Shown here in pieces: positions 4,221-64,000 of a stretch of 64,000 nucleotides of DNA. Numbering within the stretch: the first letter of the stretch is position 1; each line of letters begins with the position of its first letter. Under the pieces are notes generated by a model, which was not told the origin of the DNA, searched no databases, and worked only from the letters and a program-made list of their open reading frames with translations. Both the position numbers and the translations under genes were made by a program. The stretch comes from Asticcacaulis machinosus (GTDB lineage: Bacteria > Pseudomonadota > Alphaproteobacteria > Caulobacterales > Caulobacteraceae). Location of the stretch: positions 1 to 64,000 of the forward strand of contig NZ_JAQQKV010000003.1 of the NCBI RefSeq assembly GCF_028550435.1, in the 5' to 3' direction.

Positions 4221-5210
4221 TTAGTCCTTCCGCGGGGCCGTAAGCCCGGCCTCGGTTTGCTCAACCGGCTGCATCGTGCCATCGGGATTGTAGTAAAGAT
4301 GCTCGGCCCGTACGGCGCGCCGGCCAATCGCACCGGTCTGATCACCGATGGTAAGCGACGCATCATGGTAAAAGAAATAGTCCTTGCCTTTGAAGGTGAT
4401 GATGCCCGGATGGATGGTGAAGCTGTTTTTGCCGGAGCCGGTCAGCACGCCGCGAAATGTCCACGGGCCGGTAATCGATGGCGCGGTGGCATAGGATATG
4501 GTCTCATCCTTATCCTTTGACTTATCGCGGGAGGCATAGGTCAGGTAATAGATGTCGCCGCGCCTGGTGATCCACGGGCCTTCTTCGAAATGGGGCAGGT
4601 CGAACTGCTTAATCGGGCCGTCCAGTTCGATCATATTGGGTTTCAGCTTAGCGTAATAGCAGTTGAAATTGCCCCAGATCAGCCAGGCCGAGCCATCGTC
4701 GTCAATGAACACGGTCGGGTCAATATCGTCCCAGGTATGCGGGCCTTGCGGCGTCATTTGATTATGGATCAGGGCCGTGCCGCGCGCGTCGACAAATGGG
4801 CCGGTCGGGCTGTCTGAGACCGCCACGCCGATCGCTTTGCCGGGCTGGGTTTTGTCGTGTTCAACGGCGGCGTAGAAATAGAACTTGCCGTCTTTCTCAA
4901 TCGTCTGAGCCGCCCAGGCGTCTTTTGCAGCCCACTTGAAATCGGTCGCCTTCATGATCGGGCCGTGGGCGGTCCAGGTCAGAAGGTCTTTGGACGAAAA
5001 GACGCGCCAGTCCTTCATGGTGAACATCTCAGTGCCGCGCGCTTCGTCATGGCCAGTGTAAAGATAGACCGTATCGCCCACCACCAGAGGCGCCGGATCG
5101 GCAGTGAACATGTCGGTAAACAGCGGATTTGATCCCGGTGCGCGAGGGTCTGCGGTGGCGGTCGTGGCCAGCATAAGGCCCGCCATGATAAGTGACGTGG
5201 TTTTAAGCAT
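4221..5210 (-). CDS. GH43 family arabinosidase/xylosidase, secreted
   Basis: 329 aa with a Sec signal peptide ending around TATA-DP (residue 20). It shows the GH43 five-blade propeller signatures: ADPAP with base Asp38, DIDP with the pKa-setting Asp164, and FEEGPW with the acid Glu210. An AGGGA ribosome site precedes the ATG. GH43 enzymes release arabinofuranose or xylose from arabinan and arabinoxylan. With the GH127-like gene at 487 on the same strand it suggests stepwise trimming of arabinose-containing side chains in the periplasm. The two genes are not contiguous, so one operon is not certain. Confidence 0.88.
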   Translation of the reverse strand: MLKTTSLIMAGLMLATTATADPRAPGSNPLFTDMFTADPAPLVVGDTVYLYTGHDEARGTEMFTMKDWRVFSSKDLLTWTAHGPIMKATDFKWAAKDAWAAQTIEKDGKFYFYAAVEHDKTQPGKAIGVAVSDSPTGPFVDARGTALIHNQMTPQGPHTWDDIDPTVFIDDDGSAWLIWGNFNCYYAKLKPNMIELDGPIKQFDLPHFEEGPWITRRGDIYYLTYASRDKSKDKDETISYATAPSITGPWTFRGVLTGSGKNSFTIHPGIITFKGKDYFFYHDASLTIGDQTGAIGRRAVRAEHLYYNPDGTMQPVEQTEAGLTAPRKD

Positions 5211-5263
5211 GTTGATCTTCCCTGATGTTATGTTTTTTTAGATTATTTTGTCGCGATATCGTT

Positions 5264-5289
5264 GTCGAAAACCGCTTACACTTTTCGAC
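5264..5289. promoter_or_regulatory. Candidate operator upstream of the GH43 gene
   Basis: A perfect 8-bp inverted repeat GTCGAAAA/TTTTCGAC has a 10-bp centre, 54 bp before the GH43 start. Its size and position suit a dimeric regulator. No regulator gene is adjacent, so the assignment is inference only. Confidence 0.4.
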
Positions 5290-5429
5290 TATCGCTTATT
5301 ATGTCGGGCTTTGACAGATGTGCAATAGTCTGAGTAAATGACGGTCAAATAACACTTATAAAACGGGAAGACGCTATGAAGATTTGGTTCTTCTTATGAA
5401 AAACCTGTCGGTCAATTCTGCAAAATAAA

Positions 5430-5466
5430 GCGAAAATTTTCGCAGGGCCGCCCCAAGAAAATTTTC
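5430..5466. repeat. Palindrome pair GAAAATTTTC, 25 bp apart
   Basis: The 14-bp palindrome GCGAAAATTTTCGC (5430-5443) is followed by a second GAAAATTTTC (5457-5466). The rest of the 5211-5524 spacer holds only these, the operator-like repeat at 5264 and the terminator at 5481. Confidence 0.45.
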
Positions 5467-5480
5467 ACCGAACTTGATCC

Positions 5481-5521
5481 GCAGAAAACGTATTTGGCAC
5501 ATAGTGCCAAAACTTTTCTGC
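5481..5521 (-). terminator. Long hairpin terminator of the DUF2336 gene
   Basis: It starts 3 nt past the stop codon at 5525. Outer arms GCAGAAAA/TTTTCTGC enclose inner arms TTTGGCAC/GTGCCAAA with a 3-nt loop. Almost every base is paired, and the structure could stop transcription from either side. Confidence 0.7.
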
Positions 5522-5524
5522 GAG

Positions 5525-6610
5525 TTACGCCGCATGCCCCTCAGCGCGTCTTAGGCGCCAGAAGCGGATGGTGCGCAGGGCCGTCTCGCGCGGCAGGTCG
5601 GCATATAAACGACCATATTCCTGGGCCTTGGCCATCGCGTTTTCCTGATGGTTGAGCATGATCATGGCATAGGTCAGGAACAGCGATTTTTCCAGATCGG
5701 CGGCCTTACACGCAATGGCCAGCGCGTCAATTTCCCGCTTTTCGACCAGATGCTTGGCGGTCAGGAAATCGATATCGGCCAGTTGTGACAGGGCGACCAG
5801 AAACCAGGTCGGGTTCGGATCGCGCATGTAACGCGCCAAAAGCGGCGGGGTCAGTTTCTCGTTCTTGCGCAGCCCTTCGACCTCAGCCGAAATGGCTTCA
5901 TAGTCGGCGGGGTATGAGCCGTGGGCGATGGCGACGCTGTTACGGCCCTTGCTCATGGCTTCATCCAGCAGGGCCGGATCGAGCTTGGCGTTTTCCTCAA
6001 GGATGCGTTCCCTAAGGCGGGCTTCGACCACGAAATACATCTCATTCATCAGGTCGGCGGGCAGGTCAGAACGGCCAATGACGGCCGCATGAAGATCAGG
6101 ATTGGCCTGAGCGCGGGCGACGACCGCTTCGTTCGATTCCCGCGACAGGCGCGCGCCTTCGTTTTTCAAAAGCACGTTCAGAGTGGTGTCATCGCCGCGT
6201 CGCACAATGACGCCGGTGACATTTTCGGTGACGGTTTCACGGCGCGACACGGCCCGCAGGTGCTCCTGCCCCTGCGTGTTGACGACGTGCAAAAGATCGC
6301 TTTCCGACAAAGCGTTTGAGCGCATGAGGATGGGTTCGGCCACGTCGATATGATCGACCATCAGTTGCCGCAACAATCCTTGCGGTGCGGTTGCCGCCCC
6401 TGACATTTTGTGGGCGATTTCGGCACGGACGACGGCTTCCATCTCTTCGGTCAACTGGCTCATGACCGTGTCATAAAGCACCATCTCCGCGCTGGAAATC
6501 GCCTCATGATTGGCCAGAAACAGGTTGGTGACTTCGCGCAAAAGTTCGCGCCGCTTGGAACTTGACGGTTCTTTCGCCAGTTCGATCAGGGATAATAACG
6601 GAGAAGGCAT
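5525..6610 (-). CDS. DUF2336 domain protein
   Basis: 361 aa, entirely helical-looking and soluble, with no signal peptide. It resembles the DUF2336 family common in Caulobacterales and other alphaproteobacteria: N-terminal LLSLIELAKEPSSSKRRELLREVTNLF, then repeated helical pairs such as the PILMRSNALSESDLLHVV segment near residue 93. The repeats recall HEAT-like scaffolds. The biochemical role is unknown. It ends in a strong hairpin and starts 27 bp after the next gene upstream, so the two may be cotranscribed. Confidence 0.75.
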   Translation of the reverse strand: MPSPLLSLIELAKEPSSSKRRELLREVTNLFLANHEAISSAEMVLYDTVMSQLTEEMEAVVRAEIAHKMSGAATAPQGLLRQLMVDHIDVAEPILMRSNALSESDLLHVVNTQGQEHLRAVSRRETVTENVTGVIVRRGDDTTLNVLLKNEGARLSRESNEAVVARAQANPDLHAAVIGRSDLPADLMNEMYFVVEARLRERILEENAKLDPALLDEAMSKGRNSVAIAHGSYPADYEAISAEVEGLRKNEKLTPPLLARYMRDPNPTWFLVALSQLADIDFLTAKHLVEKREIDALAIACKAADLEKSLFLTYAMIMLNHQENAMAKAQEYGRLYADLPRETALRTIRFWRLRRAEGHAA

Positions 6611-59401: not shown

Positions 59402-62203
59402 CTAGAAGCTGTAACGCGCACTGAGGAAGACCTGACGGCCCGTATGGCTACGGACATTCAGACGGTTGGAGGCATCAACATACTGATCGTTGAATTCATC
59501 GGTCAGGTTGATGCCCTCCAGGCTGAGCTTCAACTTCGGCGTCACGCTATATGACGCCTGCATGTCGAAGTTCAGGGTTTCATTGGTACCGGCGACGCTG
59601 TTGCCGTCGGGGGCCGGAACGGCGGTCAGATAGCCCTCACGATAGGCCGCCGATCCGCGTACCGAGAATTTTTCGGTTTCATAGTAGATAGTGAAGTTGG
59701 CCGCATTCTTGGACAGGCCGATCAGGGTCTCATTGACCACGGCGGCATTGGCCGAGGTCGAGGTCAGATAATCGATGCTGGAATCGACATAGGTGTAGTT
59801 GGCCAGCACCCCGAAATTGGCCCAGAAACCGGGCAGAAAATCGAGTTGCTGCTGAGCATTGATCTCGAACCCTTTCAACTCACCGCCGGGGCTGTTGAAC
59901 GGCTGGCTGACGTTGAAAATCTCGGTCGGCGACGTATTGGTCGGGGTCAGCAGCGACAGCGGCAGGCCCAGTTGATCAAACGGGATACGCTCGACTACGG
60001 TTTGTACGAAGGTGTCGATCTTTTTGTAGAACAGACCGGCGGCAAAGAGCGAATTGGGCGCCGGATACCATTCCAGAGACAGGTCGAGGTTTTTCGACTT
60101 GGTCGGTTCTATGTCAGGATTGCCGCGCGAATAGGAGTAGTTCGAGCCCTGGATAGAGACATTTCCACCGGGGGTCAGCCCTGAAATAGACGGCCGTGCG
60201 ATGGTTTCGGCGGCACTGATGCGCAAGACCACATCGTCGGTCAGGTCGGCGGCCAGATTGCCCGATGGCAGGGTCATGTCGTAGCTACGCTTGGATTCTA
60301 CCCACTCGATCTGGAGATTGGCACCCGAGCCGGTCGAAGCGTAACCCCCGGCATGCTGATCCGTCTTGACGTGACGCACACCCGCATCACCGCGCCACGG
60401 CAGGCCAAAGGCGTTGAACTTGAAATCGGCCTGTAGATAGGCCCCGGTATTGGCTTCGCGGACATTTATCCACTGGCCGCGCGCCGAGGAATTGGCCGTG
60501 CCGGTCAGGGCGTAGATGCCGCAATTGCAATAGATGTCGTACTTTTCGGCAAACTTGTTCAGGTCAGGCGCCAACCATGCTGTGGCATTGCCCGATGGCT
60601 GATCCAGGTTGCGGCCAAAGCCTGAGAAGACTTCCGACACCGCCGCCAGATCGTTGGCCGACAGGGTGTTGGTGAGGGTCTCGGACGTGCGGTAATAGCC
60701 ACGCGAGTCAAAGGTGAACTTGCGGTAGTCGATCCCGCCCTTGACGGTGAAATTGTCGGTGAAATCATATTCCAGATAGGCCTTGGCATTGGCAAAGGCG
60801 TTGGTGACGAAGTTCGGGCGGATACGCACCTCAGACGTGCCATTGGTCATCGCCCAGTTGGCCGGGTTGGTGGCGTCGAAGTTCAGATTAATCGCCGGCA
60901 TACGTGAGCGGAAGTCGTAGCTGTAGCCCTGCGTATTGGCGCGATCAAAGGTGATGATGGTCGAGACGGGGTTTGAAAACTCCGACTGCGAATGACCGGC
61001 GATGACCCCGCCGCGCAGACGATCACTGAAATTATGGGTCAGGGTGAGGGTATACTGGGTGAACTCCGTCTCCATCTCATCCCACGCCGTCTGGGTGCGC
61101 AGATCGACATTGTCCATCGTGGCCTGAACCAGATTACGGCCTTCGACGATGCCGCTGCGGATAATAGTTTGCGGCTTACCCGTACCGCTGCGGCTCAGGC
61201 CGATGGCCTGAAGCTGATGCTCACCGCGTGTGGTTTTCACATCAGAATAGAGCACATCAAACGTAACCAGCGTATCATCCGATGGGCGCATCTGGAACGA
61301 ACCGGTCAGGCCCAGACGCTCGGTATTGATGTCGTAGCTGACATAGGACGGCAGGCGCGGGTGAAAAATGCCGGTGGTGGCGCTGGTGTTATTAATTTCG
61401 GCAATGGTATAGCCCGCAACGGTCGACTGGGTGTTGAACCCGCCGTTGGCACCGCCCGCACTCCAGCGGGTGATATTGGCGCCTTCCTCAAGGATATGGC
61501 GCTTCTCATAAGCGACCGAAAACAGCGCCCCCAGACGGCCATCGGCCCAGCGGCGGCTGCCCATCATGGTCACACGCGGTTGCACATCGCGGGCCAGATC
61601 ATTGTAGCTGGCCTGAGCCGAGACAACGAGTTGATCATCCTTATAGTCAAACGGGCGGGCGGTTTGCAGATCGACCGTGGCGCCTAATGAGCCTTCTTCG
61701 ACATCGGCCGAGGCGGTCTTGCGCACGCTCAACGAATTAAACAGTTCCGAGGCGAACATATTAAAGTCAAAGCCGCGGGTGCGGTTGGTGCCGCCGGAAT
61801 TGACCGTGCCGCCGGTGGTGGCGATGGCTTCCATGCCGTTGACACGGACACGGGTATATTCAGAGCCTAAGCCACGCACCGAAATCTGGCGGCCTTCGCC
61901 ATTGGCGCGGGTGATGGCCACCCCCGGAATACGTTGCAGCGATTCCGCAAGATTCAGGTCGGGGAAGTCGGCGATATCTTCGGCCTTGATGGAATCAACC
62001 ACGCCGCTCTCAAACCGCTTGGCGCGGATGGCGCTTTGCAGCGAGCCACGAAAGCCGGTAACGACAACTTCGGTAACATCATCTTCGGCCGCGGGTGCTG
62101 CGTCCTGTGCCATGACCGGCGCGGCGCTGGCCAGCAGCAGCCCGATAAGCGATACACTCCGCAGGAGGCCGTGACGGGCCTCCCCATTCCCTGATTTCAA
62201 CAT
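59402..62203 (-). CDS. Large TonB-dependent receptor, no STN
   Basis: 933 aa from the ATG at 62203 (AGGAAAG upstream; a longer frame to 62251 is unsupported). The signal peptide ends near VMAQ (about 33), then comes the TonB box VTEVVVTGF, plug (FPDLNLAESLQRIPGVAITRANGEG) and a barrel ending in SARYSF. It is the same glycan-type class as the receptor at 38755. A small Cys pair (CNCG, about 566) may form a loop disulfide. Its neighbours suggest uronate-containing oligosaccharides as cargo. It has its own terminator and lies 146 bp after the DctD-like gene. Confidence 0.92.
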   Translation of the reverse strand: MLKSGNGEARHGLLRSVSLIGLLLASAAPVMAQDAAPAAEDDVTEVVVTGFRGSLQSAIRAKRFESGVVDSIKAEDIADFPDLNLAESLQRIPGVAITRANGEGRQISVRGLGSEYTRVRVNGMEAIATTGGTVNSGGTNRTRGFDFNMFASELFNSLSVRKTASADVEEGSLGATVDLQTARPFDYKDDQLVVSAQASYNDLARDVQPRVTMMGSRRWADGRLGALFSVAYEKRHILEEGANITRWSAGGANGGFNTQSTVAGYTIAEINNTSATTGIFHPRLPSYVSYDINTERLGLTGSFQMRPSDDTLVTFDVLYSDVKTTRGEHQLQAIGLSRSGTGKPQTIIRSGIVEGRNLVQATMDNVDLRTQTAWDEMETEFTQYTLTLTHNFSDRLRGGVIAGHSQSEFSNPVSTIITFDRANTQGYSYDFRSRMPAINLNFDATNPANWAMTNGTSEVRIRPNFVTNAFANAKAYLEYDFTDNFTVKGGIDYRKFTFDSRGYYRTSETLTNTLSANDLAAVSEVFSGFGRNLDQPSGNATAWLAPDLNKFAEKYDIYCNCGIYALTGTANSSARGQWINVREANTGAYLQADFKFNAFGLPWRGDAGVRHVKTDQHAGGYASTGSGANLQIEWVESKRSYDMTLPSGNLAADLTDDVVLRISAAETIARPSISGLTPGGNVSIQGSNYSYSRGNPDIEPTKSKNLDLSLEWYPAPNSLFAAGLFYKKIDTFVQTVVERIPFDQLGLPLSLLTPTNTSPTEIFNVSQPFNSPGGELKGFEINAQQQLDFLPGFWANFGVLANYTYVDSSIDYLTSTSANAAVVNETLIGLSKNAANFTIYYETEKFSVRGSAAYREGYLTAVPAPDGNSVAGTNETLNFDMQASYSVTPKLKLSLEGINLTDEFNDQYVDASNRLNVRSHTGRQVFLSARYSF

Positions 62204-62348
62204 ATGGCTTTCCTTACCTGTAGAGCAGGGTGTTCGATGCGTATTTGGCATCCCTGCTATCTTGTTATGGGAGGATCATATGCCGTTTTTCAAAGGGAGC
62301 GAATTCCAATCGGGCATGAATCAATGCGCGAAGCGGAATGAAGCGGGC

Positions 62349-63689
62349 CTATTGGCCCCGATAGGTATCGAGTGAAATGCCGTAGCGGGTGATCTTGTCG
62401 TAAAAGGTTTTGCGCGGCAGTTTCAGGGCCGAGATGACCTCACGGACATTGCCTGCGTACTGGCTTAAGGTCTCACGCAGGACCGCCTCTTCGTACCTGC
62501 TGACCTGCTCAGCAAGCCCCAGAGCGTTAGTGTCGGCAGGCAGATGTGCGCTATCGAGACCAAGGGCGCATAGTTCAGCAAACTGCTCCAGTTCGCGCAC
62601 ATTGCCGGGCCAGTCGTGACGGCTGAGATAGGCCTGAGTGGTCTGAGTAAGCTTTGGCGGCGGCCGGTTCAGGCGCGTCGCCGCATTCAAAAGGAAATGC
62701 TGAAACAAAAGCCGGATATCATCGCCGCGTTCACTCAATGGCGGTACGCGTAAGGAAACCCCGCTTAAGCGGTAACAGAGATCGGCGCGAAACTGACCGT
62801 CCTTTACGCTTTGGGTCAGATCGGTGCGCGTGGCAGCCACGACGCGTATATCCAGACTGCGCGGGCTTTCAGAGCCAACCGGCCAGATTTCGCGCGTTTC
62901 CAGCACCCGCAGCAGCTTGGCCTGCTGCGACAGGCTTAAACCTTCCACCTCATCCAGAAACACGGTCCCTTTGTTGGCGCGCTCAAACCGGCCAATGACC
63001 CGCGCCGCACCCGGACGGTGTCCGGCCTCAATACCGAACAGTTCCGGCTGAAAACTGTCTTCGGTGAGGGTGGCGCAGCCGATATGGACAAACGGCCGGT
63101 TCTTACGCGCACTCAAGGCGTGAAGGGCGCGCCCGACCCGTTCTTTCCCCACGCCGGTGTCGCCGGTGATCAGGGCATCGACATCGGCCTCGGCCACCCG
63201 CACCACCACCTGCTTCAGGTAGGTCATGGCGGGCGATTCGCCCAACAACAGGTTCTGGGCCGGATTTTCGCGGTCGAGCAGGGCCGCATGGGCCTGACGC
63301 AATTGCCGGTTTTCCATAACCAGGTCGCGGGTCTGAAGCGCGCGGCGGACCGACTGGATCAGGTCATCGCGGGCAAACGGCTTTGAGATAAAATCATAGG
63401 CGCCATCTTTCAGCGCCTGCACCGCCATCGGCACATCGCCGTGGCCGGTCATCAGGATCACCGGCAATTCGGGATCAATGTCGCGCACCCGTTTGAACAG
63501 GGTAAGCCCGTCCATGCGCGGCATACGCACATCGGTGACGATTACCCCATCGAAAGCTGAGGTAATGACCTTTAATGCGTCGGGCGCATTGGCAAAGCCG
63601 CGCACCGAAAACCCGTCCAGTTCCAGCGCTTGCATCTGCGCGGATAAAAGATCAGCGTCATCATCGATGAAAATGACATTGCCGGTCAT
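62349..63689 (-). CDS. DctD/NtrC-like response regulator with altered GAFTGA loop
   Basis: 446 aa. Receiver domain with Asp53 as phosphoacceptor and KPF near 104; AAA+ domain with Walker A GDTGVGKE (176-183), Walker B TVFLDE (242-247) and RADLCYRL; Fis-type helix-turn-helix at the end (NVREVISALKLPRKTFYDKI). The sigma-54 contact motif GAFTGA is replaced by GHRPGA (223-228), and the loop is about one residue shorter. Activation of sigma-54 is therefore doubtful. It overlaps the kinase gene by 4 bp and lies upstream of the TBDR on the same strand. Confidence 0.9.
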   Translation of the reverse strand: MTGNVIFIDDDADLLSAQMQALELDGFSVRGFANAPDALKVITSAFDGVIVTDVRMPRMDGLTLFKRVRDIDPELPVILMTGHGDVPMAVQALKDGAYDFISKPFARDDLIQSVRRALQTRDLVMENRQLRQAHAALLDRENPAQNLLLGESPAMTYLKQVVVRVAEADVDALITGDTGVGKERVGRALHALSARKNRPFVHIGCATLTEDSFQPELFGIEAGHRPGAARVIGRFERANKGTVFLDEVEGLSLSQQAKLLRVLETREIWPVGSESPRSLDIRVVAATRTDLTQSVKDGQFRADLCYRLSGVSLRVPPLSERGDDIRLLFQHFLLNAATRLNRPPPKLTQTTQAYLSRHDWPGNVRELEQFAELCALGLDSAHLPADTNALGLAEQVSRYEEAVLRETLSQYAGNVREVISALKLPRKTFYDKITRYGISLDTYRGQ

Positions 63690-64000
63690 GTCGCGACCTT
63701 TAATCTGAGGATAAAGGTCGCCCCTGCATCCGTGCTTTCCGCGCTCAGGTCGCCGCCAAAATCGCGTAAGATATCGTGGGCGATGACGAGGCCGAGCCCC
63801 AGCCCCTTGGGCTTGGTCGTCACAAACGGCGTAAATAACTGATCCAGCACTTCGGGTTTGAGGCCGGGGCCATTGTCGATGACCTTAAGTGTCACCCAGC
63901 CGTCCGCCACCTTAACCGTCAGGCGCACGGTCGGATTGGGTGTGTTCTCCAGCGCTTCAAAGGCGTTTTGCAGCAGGTTGACCAGAACCTGTTCCAGCCG
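63686..64000 (-). CDS. Sensor histidine kinase (DctB-like), C-terminal part only
   Basis: The 3' 104 codons are in the window and the rest lies beyond 64000. The visible part is the ATPase domain: N box LEQVLVNLLQNAFEAL, G1 DNGPGL, F box LFTPFVTTK and G2 GLGLGL. Its stop overlaps the response regulator start (ATGA), so they form a two-component pair. The sensing domain cannot be seen, so the signal is unknown. Confidence 0.88.
   Translation of the reverse strand, partial: RLEQVLVNLLQNAFEALENTPNPTVRLTVKVADGWVTLKVIDNGPGLKPEVLDQLFTPFVTTKPKGLGLGLVIAHDILRDFGGDLSAESTDAGATFILRLKVAT

Follow-up and report, generated by a model that had tools for sequence, protein, structure and literature searches.

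The window analysed here is a stretch of 64 000 nt (C3:1-64000, the same numbering as the contig) that ends inside a dctB gene, and the rest of dctB together with dctA follows past position 64000, out of reach of the earlier note. The features discussed below are:

59402-62251, minus strand: TonB-dependent receptor gene, proposed in an earlier note as the target of the regulator, unsupported in that role
62349-63689, minus strand: dctD-like response regulator gene with an ATG start, 446 aa, receiver, AAA+ and HTH parts (open reading frame and Pfam)
62376-62453, minus strand: HTH stretch that includes PRKTFYDK and shows strong conservation with canonical DctD (alignments)
62946-62963, minus strand: Walker B, VFLDEV, residues 243-248, intact in this DctD (alignment)
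63006-63023, minus strand: GHRPGA in place of GAFTGA, residues 223-228 (sequence and alignments)
63141-63164, minus strand: Walker A, GDTGVGKE, residues 176-183, intact (alignments)
63531-63533, minus strand: phospho-acceptor Asp53, invariant in both alignments (A1 and A2)
63686-64000, minus strand: 3' part of the dctB kinase gene, whose listed open reading frame reaches C3:65425
C3:65409-65426 and C3:65441-65458, outside the window: paired candidate DctD operators (palindrome sequence)
C3:65582, outside the window: start of dctA, divergent from dctB (DctA model match)

Pfam places Response_reg at residues 5-114 of DctD, Sigma54_activat at 148-313 and AAA_lid_14 at 320-376. The receiver is matched by the solved receiver structure of S. 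meliloti DctD (1qkk, E 1.5e-47), the best match for the whole protein is the NtrC-family entry 4l4u, and no NCBIfam model exceeded its cut-off among the 25 matches listed of 107. FRADLCYRL and WPGNVRELE are present (sequence, alignments), and the alignments show that the arginine fingers are retained, as are Walker A and B; the Walker B glutamate, which is substituted in 10 of the 43 clade rows, is kept in this DctD. The open reading frame, Pfam and the alignments thus confirm what the earlier note had read from the letters, namely intact Walker motifs and receiver with GHRPGA at the place of GAFTGA. A sequencing slip behind GHRPGA is excluded, since the same reading is found in five genomes of the genus (L022, L045-L048); other relatives carry GLRPGA, SSRPGA or EARPGA at this place. 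The predicted structure, which served for the fold alone, is confident (mean pLDDT 89.6, pTM 0.58).

The product of dctA scores 669 bits against the NCBIfam DctA model (cut-off 513), and the dctB kinase contains HisKA and HATPase domains plus a dCache match below its cut-off. Considering this locus and 20 from relatives, dctB accompanies dctD in 21/21 and dctA in 19/21; one of the two loci without dctA lies at a contig edge, and the other is a second copy. A putative porin of the TorF/Gcw_chp type is encoded 3' of dctA (L022:17022-17720, i.e. C3:67022-67720, plus strand). A match to it exists at 14 of the 20 other loci, and it may serve dicarboxylate uptake as a partner in the outer membrane.

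For comparison we aligned 81 DctD-type loci, 50 from the order of the window and 31 from the same class outside that order. The loop is changed in all 50 loci of the order, in forms that run from GAFSG, GAFNG, GAFAG, GAFDG, GAFPG and GHRPGA up to deletions and insertions; outside the order it reads GA/SFTG in 28 loci and GAFPG in three. The 450 nt upstream of the adjacent transporter gene were scored with a sigma54 matrix whose weights we assumed from general knowledge. L137 and L143 were too short for this scoring, and L051, L058, L094, L095 and L096, with no dctA in the stretch, were left out. Scores of 11.6-18.3 were found for 16/17 GA/SFTG loci, whereas none of the 47 loop-changed loci scored above 9.0 (Mann-Whitney p 2.9e-9, a value that ignores relatedness). 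Tested against shuffles, 10/11 GA/SFTG loci had p ≤0.007 and 45/45 loop-changed loci p ≥0.133. Before dctA of this genome the best score is 4.3 (shuffle p 0.547), and no -24/-12 promoter was found there with this matrix. For random 450-nt pieces drawn from the window, the median score is 5.9, the 95% point 11.0 and the maximum 13.6; the weakest positives (L163, 11.6; L136, 13.6) are therefore not strong alone. The single GSFTG locus with no sigma54 match, L150 (7.5), has a transporter of 39% identity and no operator pair, and we kept it as a miss.

The named loci, taken from the best 80 of 584 with dctA present in 8 of those 80, behaved as expected: Azospirillum scores 16.7, and Rhizobium anhuiense (16.0) and Rhizobium sp. 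GN54 (18.3), which we found to share the layout of this locus, differ from it in carrying GAFTGA and a sigma54-like element. In Sphingomonas sp. AOB5 (L153) and an uncultured relative (L164), loop and promoter are both gone (7.0 and 6.0) and the operators are retained 32 bp apart. Genome-wide there are five perfect matches to the sigma54 consensus, one of them 71 nt before the start of a protein that by eye resembles a flagellar rod protein, three within other open frames and the last where a frame begins. Matches with at most one mismatch are not commoner than in the reversed control (102 versus 97), so the single-mismatch pattern alone is uninformative.

A tree was built by a quick method, with the loop columns excluded, from 80 rows (the 81 loci and 12 named ones, minus 13, mostly near-copies). 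This tree unites the 41 rows of the order with the two Sphingomonas-like rows in a single branch (SH-aLRT 99), placed near Rhizobiaceae DctD, beside which the DctD of the window is grouped. Because the loop-changed loci form one branch, the correlation between loop and promoter represents one evolutionary event, not 47. Mapped on the tree, the promoter state changes once (L150 excluded) and the loop at least seven times within the clade. Four members, L061, L106, L108 and L112, carry GAFSGA, a form whose function we presume, and they too have no sigma54 promoter (7.4-9.0). As these members are already without it, the comparison suggests that the promoter was lost before the loop. The dN/dS of DctD is 0.048-0.118 in 13 pairs, which indicates strong purifying selection, and 0.056-0.058 between this genome and three near relatives.

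The gap between dctB and dctA contains two palindromes, TTGGCGGAAAATCGCACA and TGTGCGGATTTTCGCACA, with 32 bp between their centres. The distal one overlaps with the start listed for dctB, and the centre of the proximal one lies 132 bp from the listed start of dctA. A perfect TGTGCG-N6-CGCACA occurs only once in the 3.77-Mb genome, inside this gap; with one mismatch it occurs at ten places, of which C1:772267 sits within an ORF. This perfect palindrome agrees with the published R. meliloti DctD site, TGTGCGgaaatCCGCACA, and two sites are likewise reported for Rhizobium dctA (PMC11077940). The consensus used for operator scoring had been drawn from the analysed loci before the published site came into the comparison. 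Operator pairs scoring at least 18 of 24 are present in 39/47 loop-changed loci, each above 100/100 shuffles, and the remaining eight (L097-L104) are close to shuffles with pair scores of 15-17 (p 0.01-0.31). In the GA/SFTG set a pair score of 18 is reached by 12/17 loci and missed by L134, L150, L163, L165 and L167. In L097-L104 the operators have drifted (TGTGTCATATTCCACAC-like) while dctB, dctD and dctA remain linked, and the specificity of DctD may have changed in this subgroup.

A WATCAANNNNTTR-like site, scored with an IHF consensus that we assumed from general knowledge, follows 33/34 or 43-45 nt past the proximal operator, offsets that are one helical turn apart. The offsets were picked after the data had been seen. 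With ties shared, 22.8 of the 37 loop-changed loci have their best forward match there, against a shuffle mean of 1.67 (largest 4.8), as do 6.0 of the 9 GA/SFTG loci (shuffle mean 0.40). A wider range of offsets, likewise picked afterwards, raises the count to 26.2 of 39 loop-changed loci, where shuffles average 2.53 and reach at most 7.3. The match is weak in the window's own locus, with 7 of 9 positions and a tie with another place. An IHF-alpha-like gene of this genome falls slightly short of its cut-off (118.4 against 120.25 bits). Operator spacing and IHF-like site are common to loop-changed and sigma54-type loci. Judged from these comparisons, the regulator is a DctD by descent, linkage and site, and by the two features tested it is not a canonical sigma54 activator; its natural target is likely dctA.

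Taken together, we think it probable that the dctB-dctD/dctA circuit has exchanged sigma54 for a sigma70-type RNA polymerase with its ancestral operators still in use. The independence of this DctD from sigma54, put forward earlier, is supported by the coupled loss of loop and promoter across loci; the comparison is not a proof. We infer the use of sigma70, activation by DctD and the start site at dctA. No sigma70 promoter facing dctA was found in the gap, and none was assignable by eye in the subclade alignments; this missing match neither shows nor excludes transcription of dctA by sigma70. The sole sigma70-like match in the gap (L022:15459-15487, i.e. C3:65459-65487, minus strand; 9 of 12, 0.4 expected) faces dctB, and its second hexamer ends at L022:15459, adjoining the proximal operator. 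As this match abuts one operator and the other overlaps the dctB start, autorepression of dctB by DctD is also plausible. From the same arrangement one could argue that DctD is mainly a repressor which, from the paired operators, blocks dctB and perhaps dctA and is tuned by phosphorylation; Caulobacter NtrC is indeed reported as a repressor as well as an activator (PMC10274813). However, the distance of 132 bp between the proximal operator and dctA is far for simple blocking, the operator spacing and IHF-like site are those of sigma54-type loci where DctD activates, and a block confined to dctB is compatible with activation of dctA, so that we regard this reading as unlikely, if still worth some weight.

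The possibility that DctD continues to use sigma54 at dctA, by way of its unusual loop and an unrecognised promoter, draws on the presence of rpoN, which this genome contains and which is retained in 45/45 sampled family genomes with this DctD (131/149 overall) and also in Sphingomonas sp. AOB5. This retention is accounted for by two further activators, FlbD, which reads GAFTGA (FlbD-Caul model, 808.7 bits, cut-off 750), and one that reads GSFTGA and that we take to be TacA-like. A candidate for NtrC, L002, was rejected; it is NtrX (745 bits, cut-off 600), which has no GAFTGA motif. Loop-less NtrC mutants can affect sigma54 genes (PMC12421884), but with low -24/-12 scores throughout the loop-changed loci, continued work with sigma54 is in our estimate very unlikely. 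Slightly more doubtful still is an action of DctD on the TonB-dependent receptor, the target that had been favoured in the earlier note. The receptor gene lies 97 nt downstream of dctD on the same strand, and read-through is possible, the gap between them having yielded no terminator-like site. The absence of a sigma54-type site before the receptor, as noted earlier, was borne out: within the 97-nt gap the score peaks at 0.5, and within 450 nt at 6.5, where random pieces have a median of 5.9. As a target, however, the receptor is unsupported and we rejected it: the window has no DctD-type palindrome within three mismatches (0.42 expected by chance), the best match in the gap being 6 of 12; no sigma70-like match was found in this gap; and no full-length receptor match was found in the loci of the 20 relatives, in which mostly about 3 kb downstream of dctD was covered. 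Two partial matches at 41% (L059 and L060) are kilobases off, on the dctA side. Finally, free variation of the loop, including deletions and insertions, and the substitutions of the Walker B glutamate might indicate a decaying regulator and a constitutive dctA; the low dN/dS, the intact receiver, Walker A lysine and HTH, and the operators kept in most loop-changed loci speak against this, and we give it the least credence.

For the proposed move to sigma70-type polymerase we envisage the following course. DctB would sense C4-dicarboxylates and phosphorylate DctD, as in the known family, and phosphorylated DctD would bind upstream of dctA at the two ancestral palindromes, which are spaced by about 32 bp; the IHF-like bend site farther downstream could then bring it to the polymerase. 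Because GAFTGA and the -24/-12 element are both missing, DctD would not carry out the usual ATP-driven remodelling of the sigma54 polymerase at dctA; its probable role is to recruit or stabilise a sigma70-type holoenzyme, as reported for loop-less NtrC. ATP possibly serves for assembly alone, given that the Walker B glutamate is substituted in part of the clade. A single change of the promoter would have occurred close to the base of the clade, with the loop decaying in several ways thereafter. Extended to its full form, this becomes a more tentative proposal, which we hold as possible: the whole enhancer (paired sites and phased IHF-type site) was kept and the core promoter swapped, the AAA+ activator drives a sigma70-type polymerase from a distance, the loop decayed afterwards, and in some members ATP hydrolysis may be dispensable.

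The DctB-DctD-dctA system of Rhizobium and Sinorhizobium shares with this locus its gene content, the divergent dctA, paired sites with the same sequence (PMC11077940) and a similar receiver, and PMC3616915 lists dctA of S. meliloti as RpoN-dependent. It is already known that loop-less enhancer-binding proteins act at sigma70 promoters. The NtrC proteins of Rhodobacter capsulatus and Caulobacter, which are enhancer-binding response regulators without GAFTGA as well, are reported at sigma70 promoters (PMC10274813, PMC12421884), but they belong to another family with other targets, and their loop is deleted where that of this DctD is substituted. Hydrolysis of ATP is reported to be needed by Caulobacter NtrC, and binding alone by R. 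capsulatus NtrC. The Rhodobacter precedent, invoked earlier for this protein, is real in that this NtrC works without the loop (PMC10274813); its extension to DctD is an analogy. Loss of GAFTGA alone is no proof of sigma54 independence, because sigma54-dependent flagellar genes of Caulobacter are raised by a loop-less NtrC whose DNA-binding domain is damaged (PMC12421884); the present DctD differs from that case in that the sigma54 promoter is missing as well. TyrR, DhaR, HupR and VpsR likewise have activator domains with an altered GAFTGA, and none of them is a DctD; the first three are stated to be sigma70-dependent (PMC3162934), and the main text of that paper makes no mention of Caulobacter. 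An open-access search by titles and beginnings of abstracts found no loop-less DctD.

Sigma54 activators and sigma54 promoters are normally paired. Related loci that have the same kinase, regulator, operators and transporter, with or without the sigma54 parts, form a natural before-and-after series, in which the order of events (promoter, then loop) becomes testable by promoter and loop swaps, as does the mechanism, i.e. an AAA+ protein activating sigma70 polymerase at a distance. If true, a two-component circuit would have switched its sigma factor by exchanging the core promoter only. Caution is also advisable in annotating members of the clade as sigma54-dependent.

Other regulators with altered motifs were met alongside. 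A separate DctD-like group with GAFPGA comprises L191 (Mesorhizobium sp. 1M-11, 4986-6600), L133, L139 and L146, and the Walker B glutamate is replaced by Asp or Gly in L133 and L139/L146. In L191 the next gene resembles, by eye, one for a TctC-type binding protein and is preceded by a TGTGTG-N6-CACACA site; no sigma54 match was found before it (best 6.0). This group may represent a second, independent switch. L267/L005 (G000:C1 near 1840600-1841800, minus strand) is a 409-aa response regulator with a receiver and a shortened, altered AAA+ core, for which NCBIfam gave no match at 1e-60. With no ELFG...GAFTGA block in its core, it appears to be another degenerate enhancer-binding protein.
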